Of a stretch of DNA of 64,000 nucleotides, positions 1 to 52,067 are shown piece after piece. A program made the translations under genes and the position numbers. Each line of letters starts with the position of its first letter. The stretch's first letter is position 1. Under the pieces are notes generated by a model that had not been told where the DNA came from, did no database searches, and saw only the letters and a list, made by a program, of their open reading frames with translations. Source of the stretch: Henriciella barbarensis (GTDB lineage Bacteria; Pseudomonadota; Alphaproteobacteria; Caulobacterales; Hyphomonadaceae); contig NZ_QWGB01000008.1 of the NCBI RefSeq assembly GCF_003576345.1, positions 1 through 64,000 of the forward strand, given 5' to 3'.

Positions 1-63
1 TGACCCAGCCCCGTAATTTCCGGCCATGAATTTGCAGAGTCCTCGACACGAAGAGGATGACAG

Positions 64-330
64 ATGCGCAAATCACGATTTTCCGAAGAACAGATCATTG
101 GGATGATCCGGGAGCACGAAGCTGGTGTGAAGACGGCCGATATCTGCCGCAAGTACGGCATCTCGGATGCGACCTTCTACAAGTACAAGGCGAAGTTCGG
201 CGGCATGACGGTGTCGGACGCCCGGCGGTTGAAGACGCTGGAGGAGGAGAACTCGAAGCTGAAGCGCCTCCTGGCCGATGCCATGCTGGACAATGCCGCC
301 CTGAAGGACCTGGCGACAAAAAACTTCTGA
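64..330 (+). CDS. IS3-family transposase OrfA (helix-turn-helix subunit)
   Basis: An 88-residue protein of the HTH_Tnp_1/IS3 OrfA type. The N-terminal half carries the helix-turn-helix ([15 protein letters not shown], then [20 protein letters not shown]), which recognises the inverted repeats. The C-terminal part (about residues 55-80, with regularly spaced leucines: [19 protein letters not shown]) is the expected leucine-zipper oligomerisation helix. It ends in TKNF at a heptamer A-AAA-AAC (318-324) where ribosomes can slip -1 into orfB to give the full transposase. The ATG at 64 is preceded by GAGGATG, a usable ribosome binding site. Confidence 0.92.
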
Positions 331-1244
331 CGCCCGATGCGAAGCGGAAGGCCGTGCACCACGTGATGGAAACGCATGGCCTGTCGGAGCGTCGGGCCTG
401 CCTGCTGGCCGATCTCGATCGGTCCACCTTCCAGTATGAGAAACGCGATGGCGGTGACGAGAAGCTGCGCCAGAGGCTACGGGAGCTGGCTGGTGAACGC
501 CGCCGGTTCGGCTATCGCAGGCTCGGCATCCTGCTGGACCGCGAGGGCCTCAGTGCCAATCACAAGAAGATCTACCGCATCTATGCCGAGGAGGGGTTGG
601 CCGTGAAACGACGACGCGGGCGAAAGCGGGCGACAGGCACGCGTTCGCCCATGCTCCTGCCGGAACAGGCGAATGAGCGATGGAGCCTGGACTTCGTGTC
701 GGATGCCCTCAGCGATGGCCGCCGGTTCCGCACGCTCTGTGTTGTCGACGACTTCTCCCGGGAAGCCCTGGCTGTGGTCGTCGATGTCTCCTTGTCCGGC
801 GTGCGGGTCGCGAGGGAGCTGTCCCGCCTCATCGCCCAGCGGGGCGCTCCGAAGATGATCGTCTCCGACAATGGCACTGAGCTCACCAGTCATGCGATCC
901 TGAAATGGGTCCGCGAGGTCGGCATCGAGTGGCATTACATCGCGCCGGGAAAGCCGACACAGAATGCCTTCGTCGAAAGCTTCAACGGCCGGCTGCGCGA
1001 CGAGTGCCTGAACGAGCATCTCTTCGACAGTCTCGGTGACGCCCGGCGCATCATCGAAGCCTGGCGGATCGATTACAACACGACACGGCCGCACACCGCA
1101 CTCGGCGGACTTGCTCCGTTGACCTATGCCGCTCAGCACCGCAGACACCGGCCCGGCTCGCTTGAGCGTCGCGGTGGCTCCGCTCGCCGGGCCTTGACCT
1201 CAAACCAACCAACAGAAAGAAAGGCGAACAGACTCTCCGAATGA
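321..1244 (+). CDS. IS3-family transposase OrfB (DDE integrase domain), made by -1 frameshift
   Basis: This frame carries the catalytic half of the transposase. After an HTH_21-like region ([19 protein letters not shown] ... [11 protein letters not shown]) follows the rve integrase core with the DDE residues visible in [20 protein letters not shown] and [14 protein letters not shown]. It lies in the -1 frame relative to orfA and has no obvious start of its own at the junction, so expression is expected as an OrfAB fusion through slippage at 318-324. The frame stays open back to base 57 over orfA, but that upstream part does not resemble a protein. It ends 26 bases before the right end of the element. 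Confidence 0.9.
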
Positions 1245-2272: not shown

Positions 2273-3226
2273 CTAGCCTCTTGCACGAGTTGTTTCGTAA
2301 GTGAGGCGCTTGCCCACGATACCGCAAATGAGATTGTCGGCGCGGGTCTTGTCGTCAATGCCTAGCCTCAAGCGGTTGTTGTGGCGGAAGTCGAACTCAG
2401 CGAGATAGCGGTGCAGGTGCTTCTCAGCGCAGTGCTGATAGGTGCCACGCATGCCGCGCTTGAACACCGAGAAGTAGCCCTCAGCGCTGTTGTTGTGAAC
2501 GTCGCCGCGAACATACTCGCCAGCGGCATGGTCAACGGTTTCGTGGGTTGCGAAATGCTCGTCGCTGCCTTTGTAGAGGCGCGAGCCATCGGTGTGCAGG
2601 CGGCTTTCGCGGTCGATGTTCTCGCGCACGATTTTGGTCACAGTTACCTTGTCGGCGCGCGGGACATGGAAGCTACGAACCCGACCGCCACGCTCGACCA
2701 GAGAGACGATAGCGCGCTTGTTTGCGGGACCACGGCCACCCTTGGAGCCTTTGAACTTGCGGCCACTGGTGCGCTCTTTAAGCGGGTTTTCGACCTTGCC
2801 GTAATAGGTTTCGTCAGCCTCAACGACTTTGCCGCCGCCACCCATGGGAGCCAGCGCACCGGAGCGCATGGCTTCACGAATGCGGTGCGACATGAACCAT
2901 GCGGTTTTCAGGGTCACGCCAAGGATGCGCGAAAGCTGGTTGGAGCTGACGCCCTTTTTGCTGGAAGCCATCAGATGAATGGCTTGAAGCCAGAGGTGCA
3001 TCTTGACCTTCGATGCCTCAAAGATGGTGCCGACTTTCACGGTGAAAGGCTTGCGGCAGGCATAGCACTTGTAGACGCCGATGCGGGTAGACTTGCCCTT
3101 GAGCGCGCCGGAATTATCGACCACGCCGCAGTGTGGACATACGCGACCATCAGCCCAGACGCGGGCTTCCACAAATTTGTAAGCGGCCTTCTCGTCGTGG
3201 AAGTGGGGCGAAGAAAGGTAAGACAT
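2273..3226 (-). CDS. IS1595-family (ISXO2-like) transposase
   Basis: 317 residues with an N-terminal zinc ribbon (Cys30, Cys33, Cys54, Cys57: CPHCG ... CYAC), a helix-turn-helix region (VSSNQLSRILGVTLKTAWFM) and a DDE_Tnp_IS1595 core. Likely catalytic acids are Asp138 in VEADETYYGK, Asp213 in LHTDGSRLY and Glu249 or Asn246 in VHNNSAEGYFSVFKRG. Full length for the family. I could not find clear terminal inverted repeats on both sides; if hicBA lies inside the element it would be a passenger, which is known for this family. Otherwise this is a solitary or decayed copy. Confidence 0.88.
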   Translation of the reverse strand: MSYLSSPHFHDEKAAYKFVEARVWADGRVCPHCGVVDNSGALKGKSTRIGVYKCYACRKPFTVKVGTIFEASKVKMHLWLQAIHLMASSKKGVSSNQLSRILGVTLKTAWFMSHRIREAMRSGALAPMGGGGKVVEADETYYGKVENPLKERTSGRKFKGSKGGRGPANKRAIVSLVERGGRVRSFHVPRADKVTVTKIVRENIDRESRLHTDGSRLYKGSDEHFATHETVDHAAGEYVRGDVHNNSAEGYFSVFKRGMRGTYQHCAEKHLHRYLAEFDFRHNNRLRLGIDDKTRADNLICGIVGKRLTYETTRARG

Positions 3227-6324: not shown

Positions 6325-6704
6325 GGATGCGGCTCCGTTCCGGCAGGTTCCTGCTCATCCTCGTAATAGTCTTCTGAGCGGCGCATAAGGCGGCCAAGGG
6401 GCCAACCCGCAAGCACCACGAGCGTGAAGGCGCCGAAGCCCCAAAAGGCATTGAAGCCAAGCGTGCCGTCGATGCTGAAATAGGGATGGCGGAAATGCTC
6501 ACCTTCCGGCGCCAGCATTTCGAGCACCGGCTCAATCGCGATCAGCAGGACCGATACGACGAGCAGCCCCCAGAAGATGGCCTTTCCTATCCACGGTTTG
6601 GTCGTCCAGCCGAACAAGGCACGTGCTGCTGGAACCGTCTGGCTCTCATCCGGCGCGTGTTCTCCGTGATCGCTCAGATGAGGCGGGGTTGCATGATCGC
6701 TCAT
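6321..6704 (-). CDS. Small membrane subunit associated with the Mrp-like antiporter
   Basis: 127 residues with a His/Asp-rich N-terminus (DHATPPHLSDHGEHAPDE), two membrane helices (about 45-65 and 85-105) and an acidic C-terminal tail. No characterised family is recognised. Start and stop overlap both neighbours by 4 bases, so it is translated as part of the operon and is likely a small accessory subunit sitting between two of the MrpD-like channels. Confidence 0.7.
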   Translation of the reverse strand: MSDHATPPHLSDHGEHAPDESQTVPAARALFGWTTKPWIGKAIFWGLLVVSVLLIAIEPVLEMLAPEGEHFRHPYFSIDGTLGFNAFWGFGAFTLVVLAGWPLGRLMRRSEDYYEDEQEPAGTEPHP

Positions 6705-8182
6705 GGCTGGCCTCCAATCGCTGGCAGAAGGAAATCGTAGAGCTCGCCCATGAAGAAGAACAGCACAAGCGTACCGACCGCCGTGAAGACAGGCGCAGCA
6801 ACAGCAAGGGCCGGAGCTCCTTCTGGGCGTTTGTAGGGTGCAGGCTCTGGCGTACCGCGCGGCGGCATCAGGGCGAGGAACGCTATGGGCAGCAGATATG
6901 CGATGTTCAAAAGCGAGGAGATGATCAGCACCCAGGCGACATATGAATCGCCGCTTTCAGATGCGCCAAGCATCAGGAGGACTTTTGGCCAGCCCCCTGC
7001 AAGCGGCGGAAGACCGATGATCGACAGCGACCCGATAAGGAAGGCGGTGAACACCAGGGGCATACGCCGCCCAAGCCCGCGCATTTCCGAGATCGCCTTC
7101 TTGCCCGTCGCGACATAGATCGCGCCAGCGCACATGAAGAGCGTCATCTTGCCGAAGGCGTGTGCCGGGATCTGCAGTGCGCCGCCCATCATGCCAGCCT
7201 CATTCGCCAGCATCACGCCCGCCGTCACATAGGCCAGCTGCCCAACGGTCGAATAGGCGAGCCGGGCCTTCAGGTCGTCCTTCGTGAGAGCGATCAGCGA
7301 AGCCACAACAATGGTGAAACACGCCACGAAGAGGACGAAGTCACGCGCGGGGGTGTCAGCCAGAAGGTCTATGCCAAAGACGTAGATACCGACCTTGGCC
7401 ATTGTGAAAACGCCTGCCTTCACGACTGCCACGGCATGGAGCAATGCGGAAACCGGCGTTGGCGCGACCATCGCATTCGGCAACCAGAAATGGACAGGCA
7501 TCAAGGCTGCCTTGCCAATACCAAAGGCAAAGAGGATCAGAAGCGCGCTGGCGATCACCGGCGTTACACCCTCTACCCCGGCAAGTAGGCCGCCCGGCAC
7601 GAAGTCCATGCTGCCAGCCAGCGTCGCCGTCCAGATAATGGCCACGAGAAGCAGGCCGATGGAGGTCGCGAGCAGCGTCATCAGATAGATACGGCCGCCG
7701 CGCAGCGCATTGGCGTCGCCCTTGTGCGCAACCAGCGGGAAGGTCGACAGGGTCAGCACTTCGTAGAAAACGAACAGCGTGAAAAGGTTTCCGGCCATGG
7801 CAACGCCCATGGCGCCCATCAGCGCAATGGCAAAGCACATGTAGAAGCGCGTCTGGTGGCGCTCCTTGTTCCCGCGCATATAACCGATGGAATAGAAGCT
7901 GTTCACGATCCAGAGGCCGCTGGCTACGAGCGCAAACATCGCGCCAAGCGGCTCTAGCTTGAATGCCAGATCAAGGCCCGGAACGACCGTACCGAGAACG
8001 TATTCTGCAGGCTCTCCGCCATTGATGGTCCCGGTCAGCAGGCAAGCGACAACAAAGAGCGCACCTGCGCCAACCAGCGTGACACCTTCGCGCACGTCAG
8101 GCAGTCGGCCGGTAAGGTAGATACCGGCCATGGTAACGAGCGGCAGGATAAGCGCCGCGAGGATCAGGAATTCACCGCTCAT
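6701..8182 (-). CDS. Mrp-type antiporter, second MrpD-like proton-conducting subunit
   Basis: 493 residues, proton_antipo_M domain, about 14 membrane helices. Diagnostic stretches are FVFYEVLTLSTFPLVAHKGD (acidic residue of the membrane arm) and GIGKAALMPVHFWLPNAM followed by TPVSALLHAVAVVKAGVF (conserved Lys and His in the broken helix). The protein would conduct H+ or Na+ through the membrane in the antiporter complex. It overlaps the genes on both sides by 4 bases. It differs from the MrpD at 8179-9714, so the operon holds diverged paralogues and not a recent duplication. Confidence 0.88.
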   Translation of the reverse strand: MSGEFLILAALILPLVTMAGIYLTGRLPDVREGVTLVGAGALFVVACLLTGTINGGEPAEYVLGTVVPGLDLAFKLEPLGAMFALVASGLWIVNSFYSIGYMRGNKERHQTRFYMCFAIALMGAMGVAMAGNLFTLFVFYEVLTLSTFPLVAHKGDANALRGGRIYLMTLLATSIGLLLVAIIWTATLAGSMDFVPGGLLAGVEGVTPVIASALLILFAFGIGKAALMPVHFWLPNAMVAPTPVSALLHAVAVVKAGVFTMAKVGIYVFGIDLLADTPARDFVLFVACFTIVVASLIALTKDDLKARLAYSTVGQLAYVTAGVMLANEAGMMGGALQIPAHAFGKMTLFMCAGAIYVATGKKAISEMRGLGRRMPLVFTAFLIGSLSIIGLPPLAGGWPKVLLMLGASESGDSYVAWVLIISSLLNIAYLLPIAFLALMPPRGTPEPAPYKRPEGAPALAVAAPVFTAVGTLVLFFFMGELYDFLLPAIGGQP

Positions 8183-9714
8183 GACGCGCCTCCGATAAAG
8201 AGCGCCTCAGCTGCATCCGTTGCGAGGCCATAGACGAAGCCGCCATCGACACCGATCCAGATGTTCGCGATCGCGAGAATCCAGAGCGGAACGAGAATGA
8301 GGAGCGGCGCTTCGCCGTGTTCCTTGTGCGGATTGGCAGGCGCGCGGAAGAAGACCGCCTCGAGAATGCGGCCCATATAGATGACGGCCAGTACGCTGGA
8401 GAAGACCACGAGCAGCGCAGCCCACCACCAGCCGCTTTCGAGCAGCGCGGAGACGAGTGCGAACTTGGACTGGAAGCCTGCGGTCAGCGGCACGCCGATC
8501 AGCGAAAGACCTGCGATGGCAAAGGCCGTCATGGTCCAGGGGGCGCGGCGGCCGAGACCCGCAAAGTCGTGGATGCGCGTTCCCTGATAGGTCAGGACAG
8601 CGCCGGCGACGGCCATGAACAGCGCACCCTTCATCAGCGCGTGATTGACCAGATGGAACATGCCAGCGGAAACGCCCGCGGCGGTACCCAGCGAAATGCC
8701 GAGCAGCATGTAGCCGACCTGGGCAACCGATGAGTAAGCAAGCGTGCGGCGTATATCGGCCTGGAAGATCGCCTGGAAGGAACAGGCGAGCATGGCTGCA
8801 ATGCCCATTGGCGCGAGGATCAGCGCGAGGCTCATGCCTTCAAAGGCAAAGTCGAGCGAGAAGACGCTGAACAGGAAGCGCACCATTGCGTAGATCGCGA
8901 CTTTTGTCGCGGTCGCGGCAAGGAACGCGGTCACAAAGCTCGGGCTGTAGGAATAGGCGTTCGGCAGCCACTGATGCAGCGGAAACATCGCGGCTTTCAG
9001 GCCAAGCCCCACGAGGATGAAGGCAAAGCCAACCTGTACCGCACGGTTGCCGCCAACATCCTGAAGCTGGACCGCGAGGTCCGCCATGTTGAGCGTGCCG
9101 GTTGCCGCATAGAGGAAGCCTACACCAACGACATAGAAGCTCGCCCCGATTGTGCCCATCAGCAGGTAGTTGATCGCCGCTGGAAGCGCGCGCCGGTCGC
9201 GGCCTGACCCGAGCGCAACAAGGACATAGGTCGCGATGGACGAAAGCTCGAGGAAGACGAAGAGGTTAAACGCGTCGCCCGTCGCGGCCACGCCAAGCAG
9301 GCCCATGAAGCAGACCTGGAACGCGCCGAAGAACATGGCGCGCTTGCCGTCGGCGATCTCAGCTTTGATCGTCGGCCAGCCAAAGATGCTGGTCAGGAAG
9401 GCAATCACGCTGACGAGCAGCAGAATGAGCACATTGAGCGCATCTATTCGGAACTCGATACCATGCGGCGGCGCCCAGCCACCCATGGCATATGAGATGA
9501 TCGCGCCGCCCTCGATGGAGCGGACCTGCGCCAGCAGGATCAGCGATAGCAGCGTACAGAGACCTGTGACGATAACCGTCATGCCCCATGCGACGCGGCC
9601 ACCGCCCGGCAGGAATGCCGCAATCGGTCCGGCCAGCATCGGCAGCAGGATAAGCAGCGCGGGTGCGTGCGCTTCAGCGAATGCTGGCGCGATTTGAAGG
9701 ATCCAGTCCATCAT
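8179..9714 (-). CDS. mrpD: Mrp-type Na+/H+ antiporter subunit D
   Basis: 511 residues, NuoN/MrpD-like proton_antipo_M domain with about 14 membrane helices. Key motifs are FVFLELSSIATYVLVALGSG (conserved Glu) and GLGLKAAMFPLHQWLPNAYS followed by VTAFLAATATKVAIYAMVRF (conserved Lys residues). Position directly after MrpC matches the usual C-D order of Mrp/Mnh operons, so this is the best candidate for the true MrpD. Overlaps MrpC and the next subunit by 4 bases each. Confidence 0.9.
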   Translation of the reverse strand: MMDWILQIAPAFAEAHAPALLILLPMLAGPIAAFLPGGGRVAWGMTVIVTGLCTLLSLILLAQVRSIEGGAIISYAMGGWAPPHGIEFRIDALNVLILLLVSVIAFLTSIFGWPTIKAEIADGKRAMFFGAFQVCFMGLLGVAATGDAFNLFVFLELSSIATYVLVALGSGRDRRALPAAINYLLMGTIGASFYVVGVGFLYAATGTLNMADLAVQLQDVGGNRAVQVGFAFILVGLGLKAAMFPLHQWLPNAYSYSPSFVTAFLAATATKVAIYAMVRFLFSVFSLDFAFEGMSLALILAPMGIAAMLACSFQAIFQADIRRTLAYSSVAQVGYMLLGISLGTAAGVSAGMFHLVNHALMKGALFMAVAGAVLTYQGTRIHDFAGLGRRAPWTMTAFAIAGLSLIGVPLTAGFQSKFALVSALLESGWWWAALLVVFSSVLAVIYMGRILEAVFFRAPANPHKEHGEAPLLILVPLWILAIANIWIGVDGGFVYGLATDAAEALFIGGAS

Positions 9715-22334: not shown

Positions 22335-22790
22335 ATGGCTGATCCAATGAAAGTGCACTACAACGACCTGGAATCGATTGCCGGCAAGGAAGTCGGCGTC
22401 TCTGACTGGGTGACGATCGATCAGGACCGCGTGAACAAGTTCGCCGATGCAACCGGCGACCACCAGTGGATTCACGTTGATGTGGAGCGCGCGACGAAGG
22501 AAATGGGCGGCCCCATCGCGCACGGCTTCCTGACGCTGTCGCTGCTGCCGATGCTCGGTGCGCAAGTGATGCGCATCGAAGGCACGACGCGCGGCATCAA
22601 TTACGGCTCTGACAAAGTGCGCTTCACGAATATGGTGCCTGTCGGCTCCAAGGTACGCCTGCGCCAGAAATGCCTCGCTGTTGAGGATAAAGCCGGCGGC
22701 AAGCAGACCCGTATGGAAGCCACGATTGAAGTCGAAGGCCAGGAGCGCCCGGCGCTCGTCGCTGAAACGCTGACGGTCGTCTACGGCTAG
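22335..22790 (+). CDS. MaoC-family (R)-specific enoyl-CoA hydratase
   Basis: 151 residues, one hot-dog fold. The MaoC signature is clear: FADATGDHQWIHVDVERA carries the catalytic Asp and His, followed by GPIAHGFLTLSLLPML and YGSDKVRFTNMVPVGSKVR. It hydrates trans-2-enoyl-CoA to (R)-3-hydroxyacyl-CoA, linking beta-oxidation with other acyl pathways. The ATG at 22335 has GAGGAAGGA upstream; the longer open frame is not used. Confidence 0.92.
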   Translation: MADPMKVHYNDLESIAGKEVGVSDWVTIDQDRVNKFADATGDHQWIHVDVERATKEMGGPIAHGFLTLSLLPMLGAQVMRIEGTTRGINYGSDKVRFTNMVPVGSKVRLRQKCLAVEDKAGGKQTRMEATIEVEGQERPALVAETLTVVYG

Positions 22791-22814
22791 GCCTGAAAAT
22801 CAGGTGCAATGACA

Positions 22815-22848
22815 AGGGGCTGGCGGAGTGATCTGCCGGCCCCTTTTT
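22815..22848 (+). terminator. Rho-independent terminator of the MaoC gene
   Basis: AGGGGCTGGCGGA pairs with TCTGCCGGCCCCT around a GTGA loop (one or two wobble pairs), followed at once by five T residues (22844-22848). It ends the MaoC transcript 25 bases after its stop. Confidence 0.88.
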
Positions 22849-23014
22849 CGTGATTTTCGTCCTTAGAGGCACAAGTCTTGCAGACTCTGACGTTGAATTG
22901 CTGCACAGTTTTTGCGGTAACGGCATCGCACGGGCAAAAAAGAAAATTGCCTCGCAGTGCCTGACTGATGTTGAATAGCCTTTCGGCTGCTTCTTTCAAA
23001 AAGGGTTCCAAGCC

Positions 23015-25054
23015 ATGCTCGTGAAACCAAAGTCCCTTTTCCTGTCGACCTCGGCCCTCGCCCTGCTCGCCCTGCCTGTCATCGCGCAAGGATCGATGCC
23101 GCGATTTGGTGCGATCGATGAGGCCTTTGCTGGTGATGGTGTCTGCAGCGACCCACGCTTTGAAGGCCCGGGCATGGCCGAGACGCCTTCAGAAGATGCG
23201 ATCATGAGCGATGCGGGCGACTGTGTCGTCGCCTGGGAAGCCGGTGAGATCACGCTGATTGAGGTCGAGGCGGACGTGGAAGACGCCGCTGATGAGGTGA
23301 TGGACGCGGACACTGAAACCGAGGTCGACGCTGAAGCAGGTACAGAGCCCGAATTGGAGGGCACGGTAGACCCCGCAGACGCAGAAGCTGCTGATGACGT
23401 CGTCGAAGAGACTGACATGGAGGCTGAAGGCGAAGCTGAAGCGGAAGGCAAAACGGCTGAAGGCGAAGCGGACGTAGACACAGACGCTGAGCTGGATACT
23501 GGCGTCGATCTTGAAGAGGCTGCAGGCGAGACCGAAGCAGACGCGGAGATGGAAGTCGCCGCCGATGATGAAGCTGAGACTGCCGAAACTGAAGAAGCTG
23601 TCGAAGCGGAGGATGTAGCTGCCGCCGACGACGTGGACGCAGAGGGGATGGAGCCGGACGCCGTAGCTGTAGTGGAAGAGGAAGTTCCCGCCCCAGAAGA
23701 GACCTCGGTCGAAGATGACGCCGCTGCGGAAGAAACCGAAGCGGCGGACCTCGATACTGAAGTTGAGACAGATGCTGAGAATGACGCAGACGCCGAGGCT
23801 GACGCTGAGATCGATCCGGCCGCCAACGAAGATGATGTTGCTGCCGGGGGAACAGAGGATCCAGCGCCTGATACCGTTGAGGCATCGGAAGCCGGCGACG
23901 CAGTGACCATGGATGAAGCGGCCGCCGAAGACGAAGAGGCCCTCGAACCAGTTGAGACAGACGAGACGGCTGGCGAAGACGAGGTGATGGCTGAAGATAC
24001 GGTAGACGCCGCTGAAGCCCCGGTCGAAGACGCGGCAGACCTGGCAGACGACGCGCCTGTAGAGGCCGAAACTGAACTGGACGCTGATGACGCGGCAGAT
24101 GAGGTCGACGCTGAAGCGGCAGAGGGCGAGACGGACGTCGCTGCACCTGCAGAAGACGCCGTCGAGGCCGCCGCCGAGGAAACCGATCCCCTCGAACCGG
24201 CTGAGACGGAAGCGGACGCTGAGGCTGAGGCTGAATTGGACGCTGGCGCCGAGGCTGATGTCGCGGAGGATACGTCCGCCGACGCAGCGCCGGACATGAC
24301 CGCCGACCCTGCTAGTGATGAGGCGGCCGAGGTCGAAGACGCCGCCCCTGCCGAAACTGAAGACGAAGCTGTATCAGACGACGCTGCCGAGACTGAACCA
24401 GCAGAAGCAGCGCCAGTCGAGGATGTTACCGAGGACGCGGAACCTGTCGCCGATGCATCCGAAACGGACGAAACCGTGTCTGACGACGCAGCCGCTGAGA
24501 CTGCGCAGGCTTTGCCCGTCACACCTGCTGATAGCGGTATCGATTTCGGCGATGATACCAGCGAGTTTGCCATGGACGGCGAGTGCGATGATGCCCGCTT
24601 CACCGGCGAAGGCATGACATCCACAGCGCTGATCCAGGACGATATCGGCCGCGACGCCACCGATTGCCGCGCGGCGTTCGAAGCAGGTCGGCTGGAACTG
24701 CGCGATGCGGCAGCCACCGCCATGCCGGGTGCAACTGAAGCGCCTGTCGCACCTGCGGTGCCGGAAGAGGAAGCAGAGACCGCTCCGGCGGCGTCTACGG
24801 CAACCACCCCACCGGCCGAAGATGATGTAACACCGCCGGCTGAGAGTTCGTCGTCAGGCGATAACATCTCCTTCAACGGGATCAATTTCGGCGACAATAC
24901 CAGCGCGTGGGCAAATGATGGCGAATGCGACGACCCCCGCTTTGAAGGCGATGGGATGACGCAGACGCCGCTATTGGCCGAGGACGCCTATCGTGACGCG
25001 AATGACTGCCTCGCGGCCTGGCGAACGGGCGGCCTTCGCATCGCTGAGGAATAG
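23015..25054 (+). CDS. Secreted, extremely acidic protein with three two-cysteine modules
   Basis: 679 residues. A signal peptide (cleavage near residue 25, VIA-Q) is followed by a module at about 31-83, a roughly 420-residue Glu/Asp/Ala-rich low-complexity region (about 84-500) and two further modules at about 509-561 and 623-679. Each module reads (I-x-F-G-D/-x-T-S-x-x-)-x-D-G-x-C-x-D-x-R-F-x-G-x-G-M ... D-x-x-D-C-x-A-x-x-x-G: cysteines 44/70, 524/551 and 638/665 lie 26-27 residues apart. The acidic region is built of shifting blocks such as EAEADAE and DADDAADEVDAE and should be disordered and highly negative. No known family is recognised for the whole; the modules could bind metal or form disulfides. 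Stand-alone gene. Confidence 0.85.
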   Translation: MLVKPKSLFLSTSALALLALPVIAQGSMPRFGAIDEAFAGDGVCSDPRFEGPGMAETPSEDAIMSDAGDCVVAWEAGEITLIEVEADVEDAADEVMDADTETEVDAEAGTEPELEGTVDPADAEAADDVVEETDMEAEGEAEAEGKTAEGEADVDTDAELDTGVDLEEAAGETEADAEMEVAADDEAETAETEEAVEAEDVAAADDVDAEGMEPDAVAVVEEEVPAPEETSVEDDAAAEETEAADLDTEVETDAENDADAEADAEIDPAANEDDVAAGGTEDPAPDTVEASEAGDAVTMDEAAAEDEEALEPVETDETAGEDEVMAEDTVDAAEAPVEDAADLADDAPVEAETELDADDAADEVDAEAAEGETDVAAPAEDAVEAAAEETDPLEPAETEADAEAEAELDAGAEADVAEDTSADAAPDMTADPASDEAAEVEDAAPAETEDEAVSDDAAETEPAEAAPVEDVTEDAEPVADASETDETVSDDAAAETAQALPVTPADSGIDFGDDTSEFAMDGECDDARFTGEGMTSTALIQDDIGRDATDCRAAFEAGRLELRDAAATAMPGATEAPVAPAVPEEEAETAPAASTATTPPAEDDVTPPAESSSSGDNISFNGINFGDNTSAWANDGECDDPRFEGDGMTQTPLLAEDAYRDANDCLAAWRTGGLRIAEE

Positions 25055-25146
25055 CCGGTCTTGAGCAACATGTCGCCAGAGGCTGTTGAAAGCGGCCTTC
25101 GCCCCCATATCTCGACTAACAGATATCGAGACAGGAGTTGAACGAC

Positions 25147-25569
25147 ATGCTGCCCCCAAAGCCTGCTGACAATTTCAAGCGCGTGAGCCGTTCGGAGAAG
25201 GAATGGCGCGAACTCCTCACCGATGAACAGTATCGCGTGGGTGTCAGAGACGGGACGGAGCGCGCCTTCTCGCCCGGCAACCACAATGATGAAAAGCGCG
25301 ATGGCATGTATCATTGCGTTGGGTGCGACACGCCGCTCTGGTCGTCGGAACACAAGTTCGACTCTGGCACGGGCTGGCCAAGCTTCTACAAGCCGGTGCG
25401 TGAAACCGCCGTTGACACCAAGACCGACTTCAAGATGATCATGCCGCGCAAGGAGTGCCATTGCGCGACCTGCGGGCTCCATATGGGGCACGTCTTCAAG
25501 GATGGCCCACCGCCGACCGGCGAGCGCTGGTGCATCAATGGTGTCGTGCTGGAATTCAAGCCCGCCTGA
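25147..25569 (+). CDS. msrB: Peptide-methionine (R)-S-oxide reductase
   Basis: 140 residues, SelR/MsrB domain throughout. The structural zinc site is Cys57/Cys60 (CVGC) and Cys106/Cys109 (CATC). The catalytic Cys129 is in RWCINGVVLEF, and the His/Trp pocket is in SGTGWPSFY and GLHMGHVFKDGP. It repairs methionine-R-sulfoxide in proteins using thioredoxin. No signal peptide, so cytoplasmic. The ATG at 25147 is preceded by ACAGGAG; an in-frame TTG at 25138 is a poorer choice. Confidence 0.95.
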   Translation: MLPPKPADNFKRVSRSEKEWRELLTDEQYRVGVRDGTERAFSPGNHNDEKRDGMYHCVGCDTPLWSSEHKFDSGTGWPSFYKPVRETAVDTKTDFKMIMPRKECHCATCGLHMGHVFKDGPPPTGERWCINGVVLEFKPA

Positions 25570-25645
25570 CGCACAGATTTCTGGACAGCAGCAATGTAGC
25601 CGCTAGGGTTTCACGTTTCTCGATATGGAACGGAGATTTTCCCGA

Positions 25646-27910
25646 ATGCGAATGAGCTTTCTGCTGGCCAGTGCCGCGAGTGCTGCCCTTCTAACAGGGT
25701 GCACGTCTCCCACCGGACCCACCGAACAGAGCGACAATACAATGACCGAATCTGCTTCTGACACGCAGACAGCAACCGACGCACGCGCCGAAACCCCGCC
25801 GATGGCCAAGCGCGTCCCGGTAGAGATCGAACAGGTCGGACGCACGCGTACCGATAATTACCAGTGGATGAAGGACGAAAACTGGCAGCAGGTCATGCGC
25901 GACCCGTCAGTCCTCCGCGAAGATATCCGCGAATACCTTGAGGCCGAGAACGCCTACACCAAGGCCTCGCTGGAAGACCCGACAGAAGAACTGCGCGAGA
26001 CGCTGCTGGCGGAAATGCGCGGGCGCATCAAGGAGGATGACAGCTCTGTCCCCTCCAAGGATGGGCCATATGCCTATTATGTGCGCTACCGCGAAGGCGG
26101 TGAGTATCCGATCTTTGCGCGCAAGCCGGCTGAACAGGCCTTCGATGCCGATGCTCCTGAAACCGTACTGTTCGATGGCGACACAGAAGCAGAAGGCCAG
26201 TCCTACTTCTCGATCCGTGGACTGGAGCAGTCGCCAGACCATAAGCTGCTCGCGTCTGCGATCGACACGCAGGGCAGCGAGTATTACACCATCGCCGTAC
26301 GTAATATCGAAACCGGCGAAGCTGTAGGTGTCCCGATCGAAGGCACTTATGGCAGCTTCGAATGGGGCGCCGATTCAAATCTTCTCTACTGGGTCGAACG
26401 CGACGATAATGGCCGACCGACTGCCGTTTTCCAGCGCGACCTGACAACGGGCGAAGATGTCGAGATTTATCGGGAAGAGGATCCAGGCTTCTTTGTTGGT
26501 GTCAGCAAATCAGAATCGGAAGAGTTCATCTTCGTGGAGAGCGGCGGTCACACATCCGGCGAAGTGTGGTTCTTCCCGGCGGATGCAAAGAGGCCAGAGC
26601 CGACCCTCGTGGCGCCGCGCAAGGAAGATGAAGAGTACGACGTAACACACTGGAATGATGCGTTTTACATTCTGACGAACGCCGAAGGTGCCGTTGATTT
26701 CAAAGTGATGAAGGCGCCCATCGAAAACCCTGGACGTGAGAACTGGGAGGAAGTCATTCCGCACCGCCCAGGTACGCTGGTCCTCGGCCTTGATCCTTAT
26801 AAAGATCACCTCGTTCGGCTGGAGCGGGCCAACGCCCTGCCCCGCATCGTCGTCCGCGCCCGCGAAAGCGGCGACGAGCACACGATTGCGATGGACGAGA
26901 GCGCCTATGATCTTGGCCTCGGTTCAGGCGAGTATGACTCGACCGTGATGCGGTATGATTACGCCTCGCCTGCGCGTCCAAGCCAGGTTTTTGATTACGA
27001 CATGGCAACCCGCGAACGCACGCTTCGCAAGACGCGTGAAGTACCGTCCGGTCACAATGCAGACGATTATGTGGTGGAACGGATCATGGCCCCGGCCTGG
27101 GACGGTGAGGAAATCCCCGTCACAATCCTGCGCCGAGCCGATACGCCTGTTGATGGCAGCGCGCCCCTGCTTCTGTATGGATATGGCTCCTACGGCATCA
27201 CCATCCCGGCGAGCTTTTCTACTTCCCGCCTGTCATTGGTCGACCGGGGCTTTGTCTATGCCATTGCCCATATCCGGGGCTCCCAGGCCAAGGGTTACCA
27301 ATGGTATCTCGATGGCAAGCTCGAGAAGAAGGCGAACACCTTCAAGGACTATGTTTCTGTGGGGCGCTATCTTATTGAGAACGGCTATGGCGCTGAAGGC
27401 CGCGTTGTTGGTCATGGCGGATCGGCTGGCGGACTTCTCATGGGCGCCGCGGCGAACATGGATCCGGAGCTTTTCGGCGGCATCATTGCGGCCGTCCCGT
27501 TTGTCGATGTGATCAACACCATGTCGGACGACACCCTTCCTCTGACGCCTCCGGAATGGCCCGAATGGGGGAACCCGATCACGGATGCCGAGGCTTACGA
27601 CACGATCCTCGCCTATAGTCCCTATGAAAATGTGGCCGACAAGGACTATCCGGCCATGCTGATCACCGGCGGGCTGTCGGACCCGCGCGTGACTTACTGG
27701 GAGCCGTCGAAATGGGCCGCCCAGCTGCGCCATGAAGCGCCGGACGCTGGTCCATACTATCTGCGTATCAACATGGATGCCGGGCATGGCGGCTCCACCG
27801 GACGGTTTGAGGGTTTGAAAGAGACAGCAATCGAATACGCATTTGCCCTGGCCAGCGTTGGCTTGGTCGACGGCTATGACATTTCGCGTTCGGAGACGTC
27901 TTCCGACTAA
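25646..27910 (+). CDS. Prolyl oligopeptidase-family serine peptidase (S9A), lipoprotein
   Basis: 754 residues. A lipoprotein signal ends in LLTGC (Cys19). The mature protein has the S9A layout: N-terminal segment (RTDNYQWMKDENW), a seven-bladed propeller (about 120-470) and an alpha/beta hydrolase domain with the triad Ser593 in GHGGSAGG, Asp679 in GGLSDPRV and His714 in DAGHGGSTG. It resembles protease II/oligopeptidase B-type enzymes and would cut short peptides after Pro or basic residues at the cell envelope. An upstream ATG at 25625 is in frame; 25646 fits the signal peptide and a GGAG site better. Confidence 0.9.
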   Translation: MRMSFLLASAASAALLTGCTSPTGPTEQSDNTMTESASDTQTATDARAETPPMAKRVPVEIEQVGRTRTDNYQWMKDENWQQVMRDPSVLREDIREYLEAENAYTKASLEDPTEELRETLLAEMRGRIKEDDSSVPSKDGPYAYYVRYREGGEYPIFARKPAEQAFDADAPETVLFDGDTEAEGQSYFSIRGLEQSPDHKLLASAIDTQGSEYYTIAVRNIETGEAVGVPIEGTYGSFEWGADSNLLYWVERDDNGRPTAVFQRDLTTGEDVEIYREEDPGFFVGVSKSESEEFIFVESGGHTSGEVWFFPADAKRPEPTLVAPRKEDEEYDVTHWNDAFYILTNAEGAVDFKVMKAPIENPGRENWEEVIPHRPGTLVLGLDPYKDHLVRLERANALPRIVVRARESGDEHTIAMDESAYDLGLGSGEYDSTVMRYDYASPARPSQVFDYDMATRERTLRKTREVPSGHNADDYVVERIMAPAWDGEEIPVTILRRADTPVDGSAPLLLYGYGSYGITIPASFSTSRLSLVDRGFVYAIAHIRGSQAKGYQWYLDGKLEKKANTFKDYVSVGRYLIENGYGAEGRVVGHGGSAGGLLMGAAANMDPELFGGIIAAVPFVDVINTMSDDTLPLTPPEWPEWGNPITDAEAYDTILAYSPYENVADKDYPAMLITGGLSDPRVTYWEPSKWAAQLRHEAPDAGPYYLRINMDAGHGGSTGRFEGLKETAIEYAFALASVGLVDGYDISRSETSSD

Positions 27911-28094: not shown

Positions 28095-29306
28095 TTAGCG
28101 AACGATGATCGTGACTTCCGAACGACGGTTCAGAGGCTCACGCACACCGTCGCCGGTTTGCTTGGCCAGATCGTTCTCACCGCGGCCTTCCGTGGCGATC
28201 ATGCTGGATGGGATGCCGCGCTCGTTAAGAGCCGTAGCAACCGCACCAGCGCGACGCTCGGAGAGACGTGCGTTGTAGGACTGTGCACCGGACGTGTCGG
28301 TGTGGCCGACGATCGTCACAGAGTTCGCAGCACACTCCTGGCGGCTACGGATGTTCGCCACAGCCTGATCGATCACAGCCGAAGCCTGGCTGGTGATGTT
28401 CGACTTGTCCCACTCGAAGTAGACCACGAACGCCTGGTTCAGCGTCGAGCACGACGGTGGTGGCGGAGGTGGTGGTGGTGGAGGCGGCGGCGGCGGTGGT
28501 GGCGGCGGCGGCGGTGGCGGTGGTGGCGGTGGAGGCGGCGGTGGCGGTGGAGCCGCTGGAGCCGCAAACTGATACCGCAGACCAACCGTCACGGAGTGAT
28601 CTTCATACTCGCCGCTGTAAGGAACCGGCTGACCGAGCGGTGCGCGGCCATCGAGGTTCAGGTCGTCGACGAAGAAGTACTTGTAGCCGAGGTCAAGCGT
28701 CAGACGCTCGGTAAGGCCGTAACCGATACCACCGAGAAGCTGGTAGGCCATGCCGGTGTCGTCGTCGTTGAAGCCGTTGGCGTCGAACGTCTGAACGCCG
28801 CCTGCGGTAACAACGCCAGCGCGCAGGTTGGTCGCGCGAGCGTCAACCTTTGCCAGACCGATACCAGCACCGAGGTATGGCTGGACAGCGCCTGTCGGGT
28901 TGAAGTCGTACAGAGCGTTGAACATCAGCTCATAGATGCTGATGTTGCCGTCGCCACCAACCGAATAGCCACCATTGGCCAGCGGCGGGAGGTTCAGGAT
29001 GCTTGCACCGGTGATCGTGGTGGACGGCTCAAGGTCGCCACCGCGGTAACCGAAGGTCGATTCCAGACGGAAGCCGTTGCCGAAGCCATAACCCAGGCCG
29101 ATTTGAGCGCCGAGCAGGCCGTCGCCGTCGAGTTCCTGATCGCCACCAAGCGCGAATGGCGCATTGGTTGGCGGATCGGAGTCAAGCTCACCGTCGAAGC
29201 TGTAGCCCAGATCAGCGCGGCCATACCAGCCGTCCTGAGCGTTAGCGACAGACATTGCAGACGCCAAGGCGGCCGCGGCTGTCGCGCACATAAGAGTTCT
29301 TTTCAT
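28095..29306 (-). CDS. OmpA-family outer membrane protein with polyproline linker
   Basis: About 403 residues. A signal peptide (ALASAMSVANA) precedes an eight-stranded beta-barrel of the OmpA/OmpW type (about 25-255, with DGWYGRADLGYSF and ERLTLDLGYKYFFVDDLNL). Then come 32 consecutive prolines, encoded at 28455-28550, and a C-terminal peptidoglycan-binding OmpA domain (FVVYFEWDKSNITSQA ... IVGHTDTSGAQSYNARLSERRA). It anchors the outer membrane to the cell wall. ATG at 29306 has AGGGG upstream; another ATG lies 6 bases earlier. The long proline run needs EF-P for translation. Confidence 0.93.
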   Translation of the reverse strand: MKRTLMCATAAAALASAMSVANAQDGWYGRADLGYSFDGELDSDPPTNAPFALGGDQELDGDGLLGAQIGLGYGFGNGFRLESTFGYRGGDLEPSTTITGASILNLPPLANGGYSVGGDGNISIYELMFNALYDFNPTGAVQPYLGAGIGLAKVDARATNLRAGVVTAGGVQTFDANGFNDDDTGMAYQLLGGIGYGLTERLTLDLGYKYFFVDDLNLDGRAPLGQPVPYSGEYEDHSVTVGLRYQFAAPAAPPPPPPPPPPPPPPPPPPPPPPPPPPPPPPPPSCSTLNQAFVVYFEWDKSNITSQASAVIDQAVANIRSRQECAANSVTIVGHTDTSGAQSYNARLSERRAGAVATALNERGIPSSMIATEGRGENDLAKQTGDGVREPLNRRSEVTIIVR

Positions 29307-29573
29307 ACTCATCCCCTATTGTGAGCCGAATAGGCACTATTACCCATCGACCGCAGAGACTAAACGGACCATTCCGTGTGGATACCCTCCTAGAACAACT
29401 TCGTTCCTGAGACGAGTGTACTAAGAAGGAAAATAGTTGAAACTTCGCGTTTTTTCTAGCAAGCGCGGCGTAAATGCAACATTTTTTCTTGCATGACAGC
29501 TCGGCGCCCGGACTTTGCCAGATTGCGGTCATATTTGCGCAACCAAGTCCGGAATAATCGAATCAGGGGGAAA

Positions 29574-47002: not shown

Positions 47003-48451
47003 ATGACGTCCTCCATCTTGCAGGCCTTTACCTTTGCCTCTCTTCTCTGCGGGCTGTCCACAGGTGCGATGGCAGACCCCGCGCCTCGTCAGACCGGTAG
47101 TGCCGTCTACCACGCGGCTACATCGCCGGCAGGTCCGGCACAGACCGATCTGACAGTGGTGGTGAACAGGTCTACGCCCATCGCCGTAGGCCGCCCCTTT
47201 GCGCGCATTGCGATCTCACAGCCCGAAATCGCTGATGCAGCGCCGACCTCTGACAACCGTCTTTATGTCCGTGGACGCACGATCGGCTCTACCAACATTC
47301 TTGTCTATGACGATGATGGTGACCTGATCGAGATCATTGATGTGCGAGTCGAACACGATCTTAGCGCGATCCAGGGCGACATCGCGGCCCTGTTTCCGGA
47401 GATAGACCTTGAGCTGCGCACCGTGGCGCAGCGGCTTCACGTGCGCGGCAATGTGCCGGATGATGAAACCGCCGCAGAGATCATGCAGATTGCGGCGAGC
47501 TATGCGCCCGACGCCGTGATTGACGCGCTCGACGTAAACAGCCCGCAGCAGGTGATGCTGGAAGTGCGTTTCGTAGAGGCCTCGCGTGAAGACGTGAAGG
47601 AACTCGGTATTGGCGGCGAAGTCAGCCGTGCGGGGGACTTCCTCTTTGCGACAGGCTCTGAGCTACTCTCTGGCGGCGCACCGAAATCCATCCTCAGCCT
47701 GCTCGGCGCTTCTGGCGGGGTGAATATCGATTTCTTTCTTGAAGCCCTGGAAGAGCGCGGCGTTATCCGCACCCTGGCCGAACCGAACCTTGTCGCTCGC
47801 TCTGGGGAGACTGCGAGCTTTCTCGCTGGCGGCGAGTTTCCAGTGCCGGTTGCCGCCGATGAAGACACGATCAGCATCGAGTTTCGCGAGTTCGGTGTGA
47901 GCCTCGAGTTTACGCCGCGCATTCTGTCGAACAACCGGATGAGCCTCGAAGTCAGCCCTGAGGTTAGCCAGCTCGATCCGCGCAACTCGGTTCGTCTTGC
48001 AAGCGTCGAGATACCGGCGCTGAGCGTTCGCCGTGCGAACACGATCATCGAGCTTGCCGATGGCGAAAGCTTTGCGATCGCCGGCCTGATCCAGAATACG
48101 GTAGACACGACATCAGTTCAGACGCCGTGGCTGGGCGATGTGCCTGTGCTCGGCGCACTCTTCCGGTCCAACCGTTTCCGCGAGAATGAGACCGAGCTGA
48201 TCATTATCATTACCCCGCGCCTCGTCCTGCCGACACCGGCTGGGACGCGCATCCCGGATCCGCTGACGAACAATCCCATGCCTTCCGAGGCTGAACGTCT
48301 GCTTCTGGGAAACCTTGATAACGACGAAGGCCCAAGCCGCGCGTCGGCTGGGACAAGCACGCTTCGCGCCCCCTCTCCTGTGGCGGCCCAGCCTGTCGCC
48401 CAGTCTTCACGCCCGGATCTTGGCTATGTGCCGGGCATGGGAGGCGAGTAG
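47003..48451 (+). CDS. cpaC: Tad pilus outer-membrane secretin CpaC/RcpA
   Basis: 482 residues. A signal peptide (LLCGLSTGAMA) precedes the T2SS/T3SS secretin N-terminal domain (STPIAVGRPFARIAISQPEI, YVRGRTIGSTNILVYDDDG), a BON-like segment (LRTVAQRLHVRGNVPDDETA) and the secretin core (about 240-410, with SLEVSPEVSQLDP, AIAGLIQN and TELIIIITPRLV). It forms the outer-membrane pore for Flp pili. First gene of the cpaC-E-F-tadB-tadC run, 3 bases before cpaE. Confidence 0.93.
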   Translation: MTSSILQAFTFASLLCGLSTGAMADPAPRQTGSAVYHAATSPAGPAQTDLTVVVNRSTPIAVGRPFARIAISQPEIADAAPTSDNRLYVRGRTIGSTNILVYDDDGDLIEIIDVRVEHDLSAIQGDIAALFPEIDLELRTVAQRLHVRGNVPDDETAAEIMQIAASYAPDAVIDALDVNSPQQVMLEVRFVEASREDVKELGIGGEVSRAGDFLFATGSELLSGGAPKSILSLLGASGGVNIDFFLEALEERGVIRTLAEPNLVARSGETASFLAGGEFPVPVAADEDTISIEFREFGVSLEFTPRILSNNRMSLEVSPEVSQLDPRNSVRLASVEIPALSVRRANTIIELADGESFAIAGLIQNTVDTTSVQTPWLGDVPVLGALFRSNRFRENETELIIIITPRLVLPTPAGTRIPDPLTNNPMPSEAERLLLGNLDNDEGPSRASAGTSTLRAPSPVAAQPVAQSSRPDLGYVPGMGGE

Positions 48452-48453
48452 GC

Positions 48454-49641
48454 ATGAGCGCCACACCGCTTCAGGCGACAGGGCCAGTGCGCCTTCATGT
48501 CTTTGCGCCCGGTGGGCACGAGGCATTGGTGGCGGCTAGCGCAAACCTGCCGACCGTCACCGTTACCAGCCATGTGAGCCCGGGCGCCGCGCTTGAAGCG
48601 GCGCAGGCTGAGCGCGGCGGCGTTCTGGTACTAGAGAATGCCGGCACGTTCGATCTTGTCGAACTACTGATCCGCGTCTCTGAAACCGCCTCCAGCCTGC
48701 CGGGCATCGTGATTGGTGAGAATATTCCGATCCTCGCGGTAAAGCGGCTGATGTCACTGCAGCGCTGGGACATGCTGCCCCCGCCGATTGCACCTGCTTC
48801 ACTGATCGAGGCGCTGGAGCTGGTCTGCAAGCAGGACAGTTCCGGGGCTGATAGCGCTTCTGGCAAGTGCTGGACGGTGACCTCATCTGTAGGCGGAGCC
48901 GGAGCAACGCTGGTCGCTGTTGAGCTTGCCTATCAGCTCAGCCAGCGCGAGACGCGCGGCAAAGTCTGCCTGATCGATCTCGATTTCTTCGATGGGGCCT
49001 GCGCCTCCTATCTCAATTGCCCGGCCAATCTCAATCAGAGCGCGCTGACGCAGTCCGCTGACCGCATTGATGAGGCCCTGCTGCAGGCTTTCATCACCCA
49101 TCACAAGAACGGGATCGACCTGCTTGCCGCACCGCGTTCGCATCGGTTGTGGAATGCGATCAAGCCGGAATCGATCCTCAAGATGCTCGAGGTTGCATGC
49201 AGCCTCTATGATCATGTGATCGTTGACCTGCCCCGCTGGCCATCGCCCTGGATGGCGTCTGTGGTGACGGGCGCGGACGAGAATATCGTGATGAGCGAGC
49301 TGACCGTCCCGGCGCTCCATGCCGCACGCAGCCGAGCCGAGGATCTCGAAGACGCCTCCGAAGGCATCGTTCAGCCACGCATCGTGCTGAACCGGATGTC
49401 GAAGAAGCTGTTTGGCGGCACCGTGACGGTAGCACAGGCAGAAGAAGCGATCGGCCGCCCCGTCTTTGCGACGATCGTTTCTGAATGGGAGGCAGCGCTC
49501 GCCGCCGTCAATTTCGGCCAGGCAGTTAGCGAAGCCAAGCCCGGAAATCGCCTCACGAAGGATATCAGCCGCCTCATCGACCTCCTCGAGGCAGGCAACG
49601 ACCCCATGGTTCAGTCGCCCCCGCGCAAAAAGAAAGCCTAG
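48454..49641 (+). CDS. cpaE: Tad pilus assembly protein CpaE (ParA/MinD-like ATPase)
   Basis: 395 residues. Residues 1-130 form a receiver-like domain without the phosphoacceptor pattern. Residues 140-395 are a MinD/ParA-like ATPase with a degenerate Walker A (SSVGGAGATLVAVELA, no signature lysine at the usual place) and LIDLDFFDG as Walker A'-like strand. CpaE directs localisation of the pilus apparatus. The stop is followed directly by the cpaF start. Confidence 0.9.
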   Translation: MSATPLQATGPVRLHVFAPGGHEALVAASANLPTVTVTSHVSPGAALEAAQAERGGVLVLENAGTFDLVELLIRVSETASSLPGIVIGENIPILAVKRLMSLQRWDMLPPPIAPASLIEALELVCKQDSSGADSASGKCWTVTSSVGGAGATLVAVELAYQLSQRETRGKVCLIDLDFFDGACASYLNCPANLNQSALTQSADRIDEALLQAFITHHKNGIDLLAAPRSHRLWNAIKPESILKMLEVACSLYDHVIVDLPRWPSPWMASVVTGADENIVMSELTVPALHAARSRAEDLEDASEGIVQPRIVLNRMSKKLFGGTVTVAQAEEAIGRPVFATIVSEWEAALAAVNFGQAVSEAKPGNRLTKDISRLIDLLEAGNDPMVQSPPRKKKA

Positions 49642-51108
49642 ATGGCCCGCTTTTCCCTTCTTTCCCGAAATAACTCAGCTGCTGCAGAAAAACCTGAGCA
49701 TGAAACCGCAACGCCCGATCGAAGCACGGTCGAGACAGCAGCGGAGAACGGACCACTTTTCTCGGCCGATGATGCCGATGAGGAAGAGGTCGAGCCGGAA
49801 GAAAATTCAGCCTCGACCTCGTTCGACCTTCTCGACGCAAAACTGCGCGTGCACAACAAGCTGATCGACGAGCTGGACCTCTCGGTTCTCGACAAGCTCG
49901 ACGAAGCGGAGATGAAGAAGCAGGTCGGCCGACTGGTTTCAGAGATCGTTCGCGATGAGCGGATCCCGATGAACCAGGCCGAAGTGCTGGATTTTGCGGA
50001 CTCCGTCTATCATGAGATGACAGGTCTCGGGCCGCTGGAGCCACTACTTGCCGACCCAACAATCTCTGACATCCTGATCAATGGCGCCAAACAGGTCTAT
50101 GTGGAGCGGCGCGGTGAGCTCGAGCTTTCCGAAGCCAAGTTCCGCGACAATGCCCACCTTCGCCGTATCGTTTCGCGCATCGTGTCTGCCGTTGGCCGCC
50201 GCGTCGATGAAAGCCAGCCGCTGGTCGATGCGCGGCTTCTGGATGGCTCGCGTGTTAACGCAGCGGTCGAGCCTGTGGCGATCGATGGCCCTCTCGTCTC
50301 CATACGGAAGTTCTCAAAGAAACCTCTCACTCTGGAAAAGCTGATTGGTTTCGGCGCGATGCCGGAAGAGGTCGCCGAGTTTCTGTTTAACGCCGTGAAG
50401 TGCCGCGTAACCTGCATCATTTCAGGTGGTACCGGTTCAGGCAAGACCACGCTACTGAATGCCCTCTCCAAGGCGATTAGCCACAAGGAACGCCTGATCA
50501 CGATCGAGGACGCCGCAGAACTTCAACTGCAGCAGCCGCACGTGGCCCGCATGGAGACGCGTCCGCCCAACCTGGAAGGCAAGGGCGAGATCCGCCAGCG
50601 GGAACTGGTCAAGAACGCTCTTCGTATGCGCCCTGACCGGGTGATCCTGGGTGAGGTGCGTTCCGAAGAGGCCTTCGACATGCTTCAGGCCATGAATACC
50701 GGCCATGAAGGATCAATGGCGACGATTCATGCCAACAATCCGCGCGAGGCGATCAGCCGACTTGAACAGATGGTGGCGATGGGCGGCCTGCGTATCTCGT
50801 CTGAAGCCGTTCGCGGCCAGATCGCATCCGCCATCGGCATCATCATCCAGGCCCAGCGCCTCTCCGACGGCTCGCGCCGTATCACCCATGTAACCGAAGT
50901 GACGGGCATGGAAGGCGACATCATACAGATGCAGGACATCTTCCTGTTCAATCGACTACGCACTGGCGAAGACGGCACCGTTATCGGCGAGTTCCGCGCC
51001 ACCGGCCTCCGCCCCAAATGCCTCGATGAAATGCAAAGGCGCGGCGTCCAGCTTCCCATGGAGTATTTCGACCCATCCAAGCCGCTTCTCGAAGTGCCGG
51101 GGAAATAG
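49642..51108 (+). CDS. cpaF: Tad pilus assembly ATPase CpaF/TadA
   Basis: 488 residues, type II/IV secretion ATPase of the GspE/VirB11 type. An acidic N-terminus (about 1-60) is followed by a helical N-domain and the ATPase core: Walker A GGTGSGKT at 262-269 (Lys268), Walker B-like [17 protein letters not shown], His box [17 protein letters not shown]. It powers pilin assembly. No gap to tadB. Confidence 0.95.
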
Positions 51109-52062: not shown

Positions 52063-52067
52063 GGGGA

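Follow-up and report, generated by a model that had tools for sequence, protein, structure and literature searches.

What kind of domain stands at the two ends of a long acidic chain, and what might the chain do between them? The question is raised by a gene in the window (the whole 64,000-nucleotide stretch of Henriciella barbarensis DNA that was analysed), whose product carries one copy of a module of about 55 residues near its N-terminus and two copies near its C-terminus. The first-pass annotation, made from the letters alone, had read the three copies as a conserved two-cysteine module bracketing a drifting spacer, had seen a hint of metal binding or of a disulfide in its aspartates and cysteines, and had recognized no named family. 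We followed these claims through sequence collections, orthologous loci and structure prediction.

The three-module gene and its surroundings

The three copies proved to be real. When M3 was searched against the whole 3.33-Mb genome, M2 (E 7.4e-17) and M1 (E 1.2e-11) were the sole other significant matches and the next match stood at 0.23; the likeness is thus far beyond chance. In the alignment M2 and M1 are 56% and 46% identical to M3, with 19 columns invariant across the three, and the cysteines lie 26 residues apart in M1 and 27 in M2 and M3, just as had been claimed. M1 has no acidic residue at columns E15 (V) and D17 (S), nor at the looser D5 and D6; since two of these columns are near-fixed in the family, M1 may bind no metal and may be a purely structural head. 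Its identity is 94-100% in three of the four orthologues compared and 62% in the other (L042).

The genes around it are ones we take, from their sequences, to be acyl-CoA-ligase-, MaoC-, msrB- and prolyl-oligopeptidase-like, the msrB-like assignment being that of 25138..25569 (Table 1). The segment 22805-22852, upstream of the module gene, folds with -30.1 kcal/mol (z -5.2; 0 of 200 shuffles folded as well) and contains a hairpin that is absent from the list of a consensus scan; a probable terminator at this place makes an own promoter possible for the module gene, and the same scan detected no promoter upstream of it. An Rfam scan of 22700-25700 gave no family, and the only tandem DNA repeats at the gene are short and degenerate. 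An antisense ORF at 22996-24897 (633 aa, Ser/Ala-rich) was judged not to be a gene because it mirrors the GAN and GCN codons of the coding strand. Elsewhere in the window, 28095-29312 (-) presumably encodes an OmpA-like outer-membrane protein; it has an uninterrupted run of 32 prolines before its C-terminal domain, and its antisense strand reads as a Trp/Arg-rich ORF. The genes at 47003-53024 (+) appear to resemble a tad/cpa pilus cluster, and we take two ORFs near the left end, 57-1244 (+) and 2273-3226 (-), to be transposase-like.

Table 1. Features of the module gene and its immediate flanks, in window coordinates.
Feature	Position	Strand	Residues and remarks	Basis
Probable intrinsic terminator	22814..22849	+	strong hairpin then T run, 3' of the MaoC-like gene	fold energy
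Three-module gene	23015..25054	+	679 aa, ATG start	
Signal-peptide-like N-terminus	23015..23092	+	residues 1-26; 77-100% identity in four orthologues	judged from the sequence itself
Module 1 (M1)	23105..23263	+	residues 31-83; C44 and C70	alignment and profile search
Acidic spacer	23264..24538	+	residues 84-508; net charge -173	composition, orthologue comparison
Module 2 (M2)	24539..24706	+	residues 509-564; C524 and C551	alignment and profile search
M2-M3 linker	24707..24877	+	residues 565-621 (57 aa); fast drifting	orthologue comparison
Module 3 (M3)	24878..25045	+	residues 622-677; C638 and C665	alignment, profile search, AlphaFold2 model
msrB-like neighbour (presumed)	25138..25569	+	ORF listed from TTG; in-frame ATG at 25147	

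A family of cysteine modules

A scan of the sequence collection confirmed 193 loci; the 80 best of them, the closest, were kept. Together with the window (81 loci) they hold 367 modules in 90 ORFs, at 1-17 per ORF, one partial module at a locus edge having been left out before the count. Every one of the 367 modules, the window's own three among them, has both cysteines and the motifs C[DSE]Dx[RQ]F and DxxDC; the first cysteine is part of one of the two search patterns, and additional copies within the ORFs found account for most of the 367. Loss of the cysteines in close homologues, which the first-pass annotation had named as what would overturn its reading, was thus not found. Across the 355 distinct rows G4, C16, D18, R20, F21, G23, D38, D41 and C42 round to 100%, followed by D17 (99%), D13 (97%) and E15 (92%), and in the 353 two-cysteine modules the cysteines are separated by 26 (202 modules), 27 (145) or 28 residues (6).

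The record titles of the 80 kept loci name Alpha- or Gammaproteobacteria, or unassigned Pseudomonadota. In genome samples that include the strain's own genome, modules occur in 22 of 29 genomes of the genus, 39 of 105 of the family, 10 of 385 of the class and 10 of 398 of the phylum; with such patchiness among genus- and family-mates, the protein is apparently not one that is generally needed. The kept loci, the genome-sample loci and the window together give 106 different ORF sequences; each holds between 1 and 17 modules, and some are partial copies of one gene. None of 31 pattern matches in viral contigs was confirmed as a relative and plasmids yielded none, and a phage or plasmid origin was accordingly set aside. 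The expectation that the module would recur in Hyphomonadaceae was correct; a restriction to acidic proteins or to that family did not stand, as the modules extend over Alpha- and Gammaproteobacteria and occur in ORFs without a long acidic spacer and in fusions.

AlphaFold2 modelling of M3 (62 residues, with 149 modules in the alignment) gave a pLDDT of 95.9 and a pTM of 0.82, with short strands and one helix, so that the model which the first-pass annotation had proposed shows a compact fold, predicted with confidence. Its failure to recognize a named family was shared by the libraries. The whole window protein matched no family in Pfam or NCBIfam, and the 149 two-cysteine modules searched singly against Pfam gave no significant family. 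Against PDB sequences M3 alone had no match below E 1, the 149-module profile a best E of 1.7 and a profile of the four-cysteine variant described below a best E of 1.1. Foldseek with the M3 model, which at 62 residues is near the limit of the method, returned a best E of 4.7 in the PDB (19 matches) and 2.4 in BFVD. Scattered hits were taken as chance: PF17810 matched 7 of the 28 proteins searched at full length, with E 0.00083 as the lowest, but 2 of 149 when modules were searched singly, with 0.21 as the lowest; DUF7409 matched 1 of 149 modules at 0.022, and CBM_14 matched 1 of 42 four-cysteine modules at 0.02. A search of a literature library did not find motif strings such as DGECDDPRF, NDGECD or DGVCDD, and among the papers returned, judged by titles and abstract openings, none was recognized as concerning the module. 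Though new to the libraries searched, the domain belongs to a familiar class, that of small exported modules stapled by a disulfide.

That the two invariant cysteines form a disulfide, as had been hinted, is likely, because both are kept in every module and further cysteines come and go in pairs. An extra cysteine within 10 residues upstream of the module is found for 13 of the 14 three-cysteine modules and for 1 of the 354 others, where it sits in the signal-peptide region; in the fourteenth three-cysteine module (L064) the third cysteine lies elsewhere. The 13 modules are all the third of three and share neighbours; they appear to form a single orthologue group and hence to reflect one event retained in 13 genes. 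No cysteine occurs outside the modules, in the stretch examined, in 67 of the 90 ORFs.

A four-cysteine variant comprises 48 distinct modules at 8 loci in four, more distant, genomes (a stricter earlier pattern had given 3 modules, the looser one 48). A profile built from 42 of the 48 aligned with the two-cysteine profile at a probability of 98.6%. Its score was 66.6; the highest scores among shuffles of two kinds, 60 of each, were 15.8 and 14.9, so that 0 of 60 in either kind reached it. On this comparison the variant is clearly related to the two-cysteine module. In the phylum sample the four-cysteine profile matched 12 of 398 genomes, partly through matches to two-cysteine modules. As the two extra cysteines are jointly absent from the two-cysteine form, we infer a 1-3 and 2-4 pairing in which 2-4 would be the invariant pair. 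Three loci (L185, L188 and L182) have ORFs with 10 or 11 four-cysteine modules. At two others (L207 and L208) two such modules precede a domain ending in YDIWAGAY, an ending that resembles the N-terminal domain (YNIWVGTY) of gammaproteobacterial module proteins. CxxANDGxCD strings very similar to the four-cysteine modules may also occur in marine eukaryotes.

The company that the modules keep points outside the cytoplasm. In 86 of the 88 untruncated ORFs (of 90) the first module has a hydrophobic segment ahead of it at a limit of 1.8, the two misses scoring 1.78 and 1.65; among neighbouring genes 150 of 444 have such a segment in their first 60 residues, a comparison in which the module ORFs, read from stop to stop, often offer a longer stretch. 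Beside proteins made up of modules only there are fusions: Pfam searches of 28 multi-domain module proteins gave PPC in 7 and Peptidase_C14 in 4. The four-cysteine form is joined to Trypsin (L136, L180 and L181) and to DUF4189 (L193), and a short two-cysteine form to Trypsin_2 (L179). A YbjN-like domain accompanies two modules in L155, over the cut-off, and in L148, just under it, while the similar L151 and the one-module L177 gave no match in the YbjN scan. Given these varied fusions and the preceding hydrophobic segment, the module is, as judged from its sequence contexts, a reusable domain of exported or membrane-anchored proteins, and the window protein is probably exported.

One fusion has a TIR domain (TIR_2, 37.3 bits, cut-off 28) followed by a hydrophobic segment and three modules (L147). 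This arrangement, at 778-2061 of L147, belongs to a genus-mate and recurs at 6548-7813 of L197; the neighbours of the former look like housekeeping genes. The L147 protein is possibly an outside-in TIR receptor. PADLOC, run on 6 proteins, reported a generic caspase in 4, one TIR-like ThsB match and one weak LmuA match; we claim no defence system.

The acidic spacer and its length series

The spacer is acidic and rich in alanine, as first described, though 'almost pure Glu/Asp/Ala' overstates the case, for these three residues make up 67% of it. Its composition is 26.4% A, 23.3% E, 17.6% D, 8.9% V, 8.0% T and 5.2% P; D and E together account for 41%, and the basic residues amount to one K, zero R and zero H. 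The contrast between conserved modules and a drifting spacer is borne out in four orthologues (L039-L042), against which no module has an indel and the spacer has 3, 14, 18 and 24. In the comparison with the nearest of them (L039) the modules are 96-100% identical with dN/dS of 0.00, 0.04 and 0.05, while the spacer, with 3 indels, has an identity of 79% and a dN/dS of 0.39, and the M2-M3 linker a dN/dS of 0.25. The ratio was used for this pair only, because dS reaches saturation in several regions once the pairs are more distant.

Charge, by contrast with sequence, seems to be held. The spacers of five orthologues contain 0 or 1 basic residues each. Between the window and L039, the one gene pair on which this test of G/A exchange at codon position 1 is based, GAN-AAN exchange is seen in 2 of 170 codons and GCN-ACN exchange in 11 of 118 (Fisher p 0.002). 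From the few basic residues and the rarer exchange in GAN codons, we read the spacer as under selection to keep its charge and not its sequence. A full-length AlphaFold model had a pLDDT of 39.7 (five sequences), low throughout including the modules, and for disorder of the tether it says neither yes nor no; with the model of such low confidence throughout, the reading as a disordered tether rests on composition and evolution. The spacer is on these grounds best read as a charged tether, probably disordered.

Orthologues at one genomic position, defined as lying beside the presumed acyl-CoA-ligase-, MaoC-, msrB- or prolyl-oligopeptidase-like genes, form a series in the length of the M1-M2 gap: 23 residues in L044, 125 in L200, 236 in L042, 384 in L041, 395 in L039, 418 in L040 and 426 in the window. 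The D+E fraction is 0.40-0.43 in the gaps of 125 to 426 residues and 0.04 in the gap of 23 (L044). At the same position short linkers separate the modules of L047, L048 and L107, which number 5, 2 and 6. Gene calling gave the oligopeptidase-like neighbour in 8 loci and the msrB-like one in 5 (L042, L044, L047, L048 and L107); at the msrB position of L039-L041 it placed an ORF on the antisense strand. Variable-length acidic spacers in other Hyphomonadaceae, which had been proposed as something to look for, were therefore found, with gaps from 125 to 426 residues, and every gap of at least 60 residues with a D+E fraction of at least 0.40 came from a locus of the window's genus. L200 has, at 6483-8670, tandem module genes just upstream of an msrB-like gene, with M1-M2 gaps of 22 non-acidic and 125 acidic residues; the pair is perhaps a duplication step before the long tether. 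The suggested link to biomineral-associated proteins was not sustained: charge alone suggests it, and nothing that we found points there.

Competing readings and comparison with known systems

We judge a Ca2+-stabilized binding head the likeliest reading of the module. It would be a compact domain locked by one disulfide between the invariant cysteines, with a divalent ion, presumably Ca2+, probably held by the invariant aspartates around C16-D17-D18 and D38-x-x-D41-C42; the acidic columns cluster around the cysteine pair. Such modules would be small binding or structural heads of exported proteins, as LNR and LDL-A modules are in animals. In the window protein one N-terminal and two C-terminal heads would be joined by the 425-residue acidic chain. 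As it is the charge density of the spacer that appears to be under selection, and not its sequence, the chain would work as a long stretched polyelectrolyte tether, possibly also as a Ca2+ reservoir, and would separate the heads within the periplasm or on the cell surface. We infer the disulfide, the metal, a ligand, the disorder of the spacer and its role as a tether; taken together, exported, disulfide-locked and probably Ca2+-stabilized heads on a charge-selected tether have in our estimate a little less than an even chance of being right.

The modules could instead be ordinary glycan-, protein- or peptidoglycan-binding domains without a metal, their aspartates stabilizing the fold, for example by salt bridges to the invariant arginine. 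R20 is indeed as fixed as the acidic residues, and the module is joined to several unrelated domains, as ligand-binding domains are, but aspartate is the residue at four columns fixed at 99-100% (D17, D18, D38 and D41), D13 and E15 follow closely, and an acidic cluster beside a disulfide is typical of Ca2+ modules; we consider a metal-free module rather unlikely. The net charge of -173 in 425 residues, an acidity of 40-43% kept through a more than threefold change in length and the near absence of basic residues would also suit a spacer that itself carries the function, as a Ca2+ sponge of the periplasm or surface or as a salt-adaptation or mineral-interacting polyanion, for which the modules are anchors. 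That the modules persist in orthologues without a long acidic spacer (L044, L047, L048 and L107), and evolve far more slowly than the spacer, makes this distinctly improbable. The presumed msrB-like gene, for a methionine sulfoxide reductase-like protein, lies directly downstream in the window and in the five other loci where it was called, and the cysteine pair might be a reversible redox switch tied to it; with cysteines 26-28 apart in the 353 two-cysteine modules and not in a CxxC, other genes as the recurrent neighbours in other clades, and ORFs of up to 17 copies that look structural, we regard a switch as highly improbable.

The module might also be a distant member of the LNR family (PF00066). 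Both are small exported modules of the Ca2+ type with GxCD and DxxDC signatures, the four-cysteine form reading [ND]GxCD...DxxDC, and the pairing proposed above agrees with that of the PAPP-A LNR modules, which in the passages of PMC9579167 that describe them have one or two disulfides, paired 1-3/2-4, and bind Ca2+. LNR modules, however, have about 30 residues against about 55 in the two-cysteine form, and the Pfam Notch model matched none of the 149 two-cysteine and 42 four-cysteine modules. Of the 12 Notch hits in ten genomes that carry modules, none fell on a module and none passed the cut-off. In comparisons with six Notch LNRs, 7 and 15 of 100 column shuffles reached the score of the four-cysteine profile and 19 and 21 of 100 that of the two-cysteine profile, so that the similarity is not clearly above shuffles, and no LNR was among the 19 listed Foldseek matches of a model near the method's size limit. 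Sequence thus gives no membership, and true LNR kinship seems to us very unlikely.

A broader proposal, which we consider unlikely, is that the modules form an unnamed proteobacterial ecto-domain family, working like and possibly kin to animal LNR and LDL-A, that would serve TIR (through the membrane), caspase and trypsin effectors as a Ca2+- or stress-reading outside head, and that in Henriciella would form the ends of a charge-selected tether that lengthened in steps, at a single locus, from about 23 residues to over 400. Should the modules sense extracellular Ca2+, the TIR fusion would link an external signal to an effector inside.

A profile of the module would annotate many hypothetical exported proteins, and the length series of the spacer at a single locus offers a natural test of whether selection acts on charge rather than on sequence.

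Among other known systems, the Dx[DN]xDG calcium loop of the EF-hand type (PMC3123361) resembles the module in having a motif rich in aspartate that includes DG, within a bacterial domain that is exported; the motif occurs in 1 of 367 modules and no EF-hand family in Pfam matched any of 149, and we do not assign the module to this type. LDL-A (PF00057) is likewise a small acidic disulfide repeat found in tandem, but with six cysteines as opposed to the module's 2, 3 or 4; of 7 LDL-A Pfam hits none fell on a module, and the module is not placed in that family. The four-cysteine profile has a weak likeness to it (1 of 100 shuffles reached the score, against 61 and 63 of 100 for the two-cysteine profile), and in the LDL-A repeats listed from the PDB the final two cysteines stand 9 residues apart and enclose [GDK]-[ST]-D or a similar string, just as they do in the four-cysteine variant. 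Finally, while the window protein has no recognized enzymatic domain, the exported caspase-PPC proteins of Gammaproteobacteria carry the same module beside PPC and Peptidase_C14.
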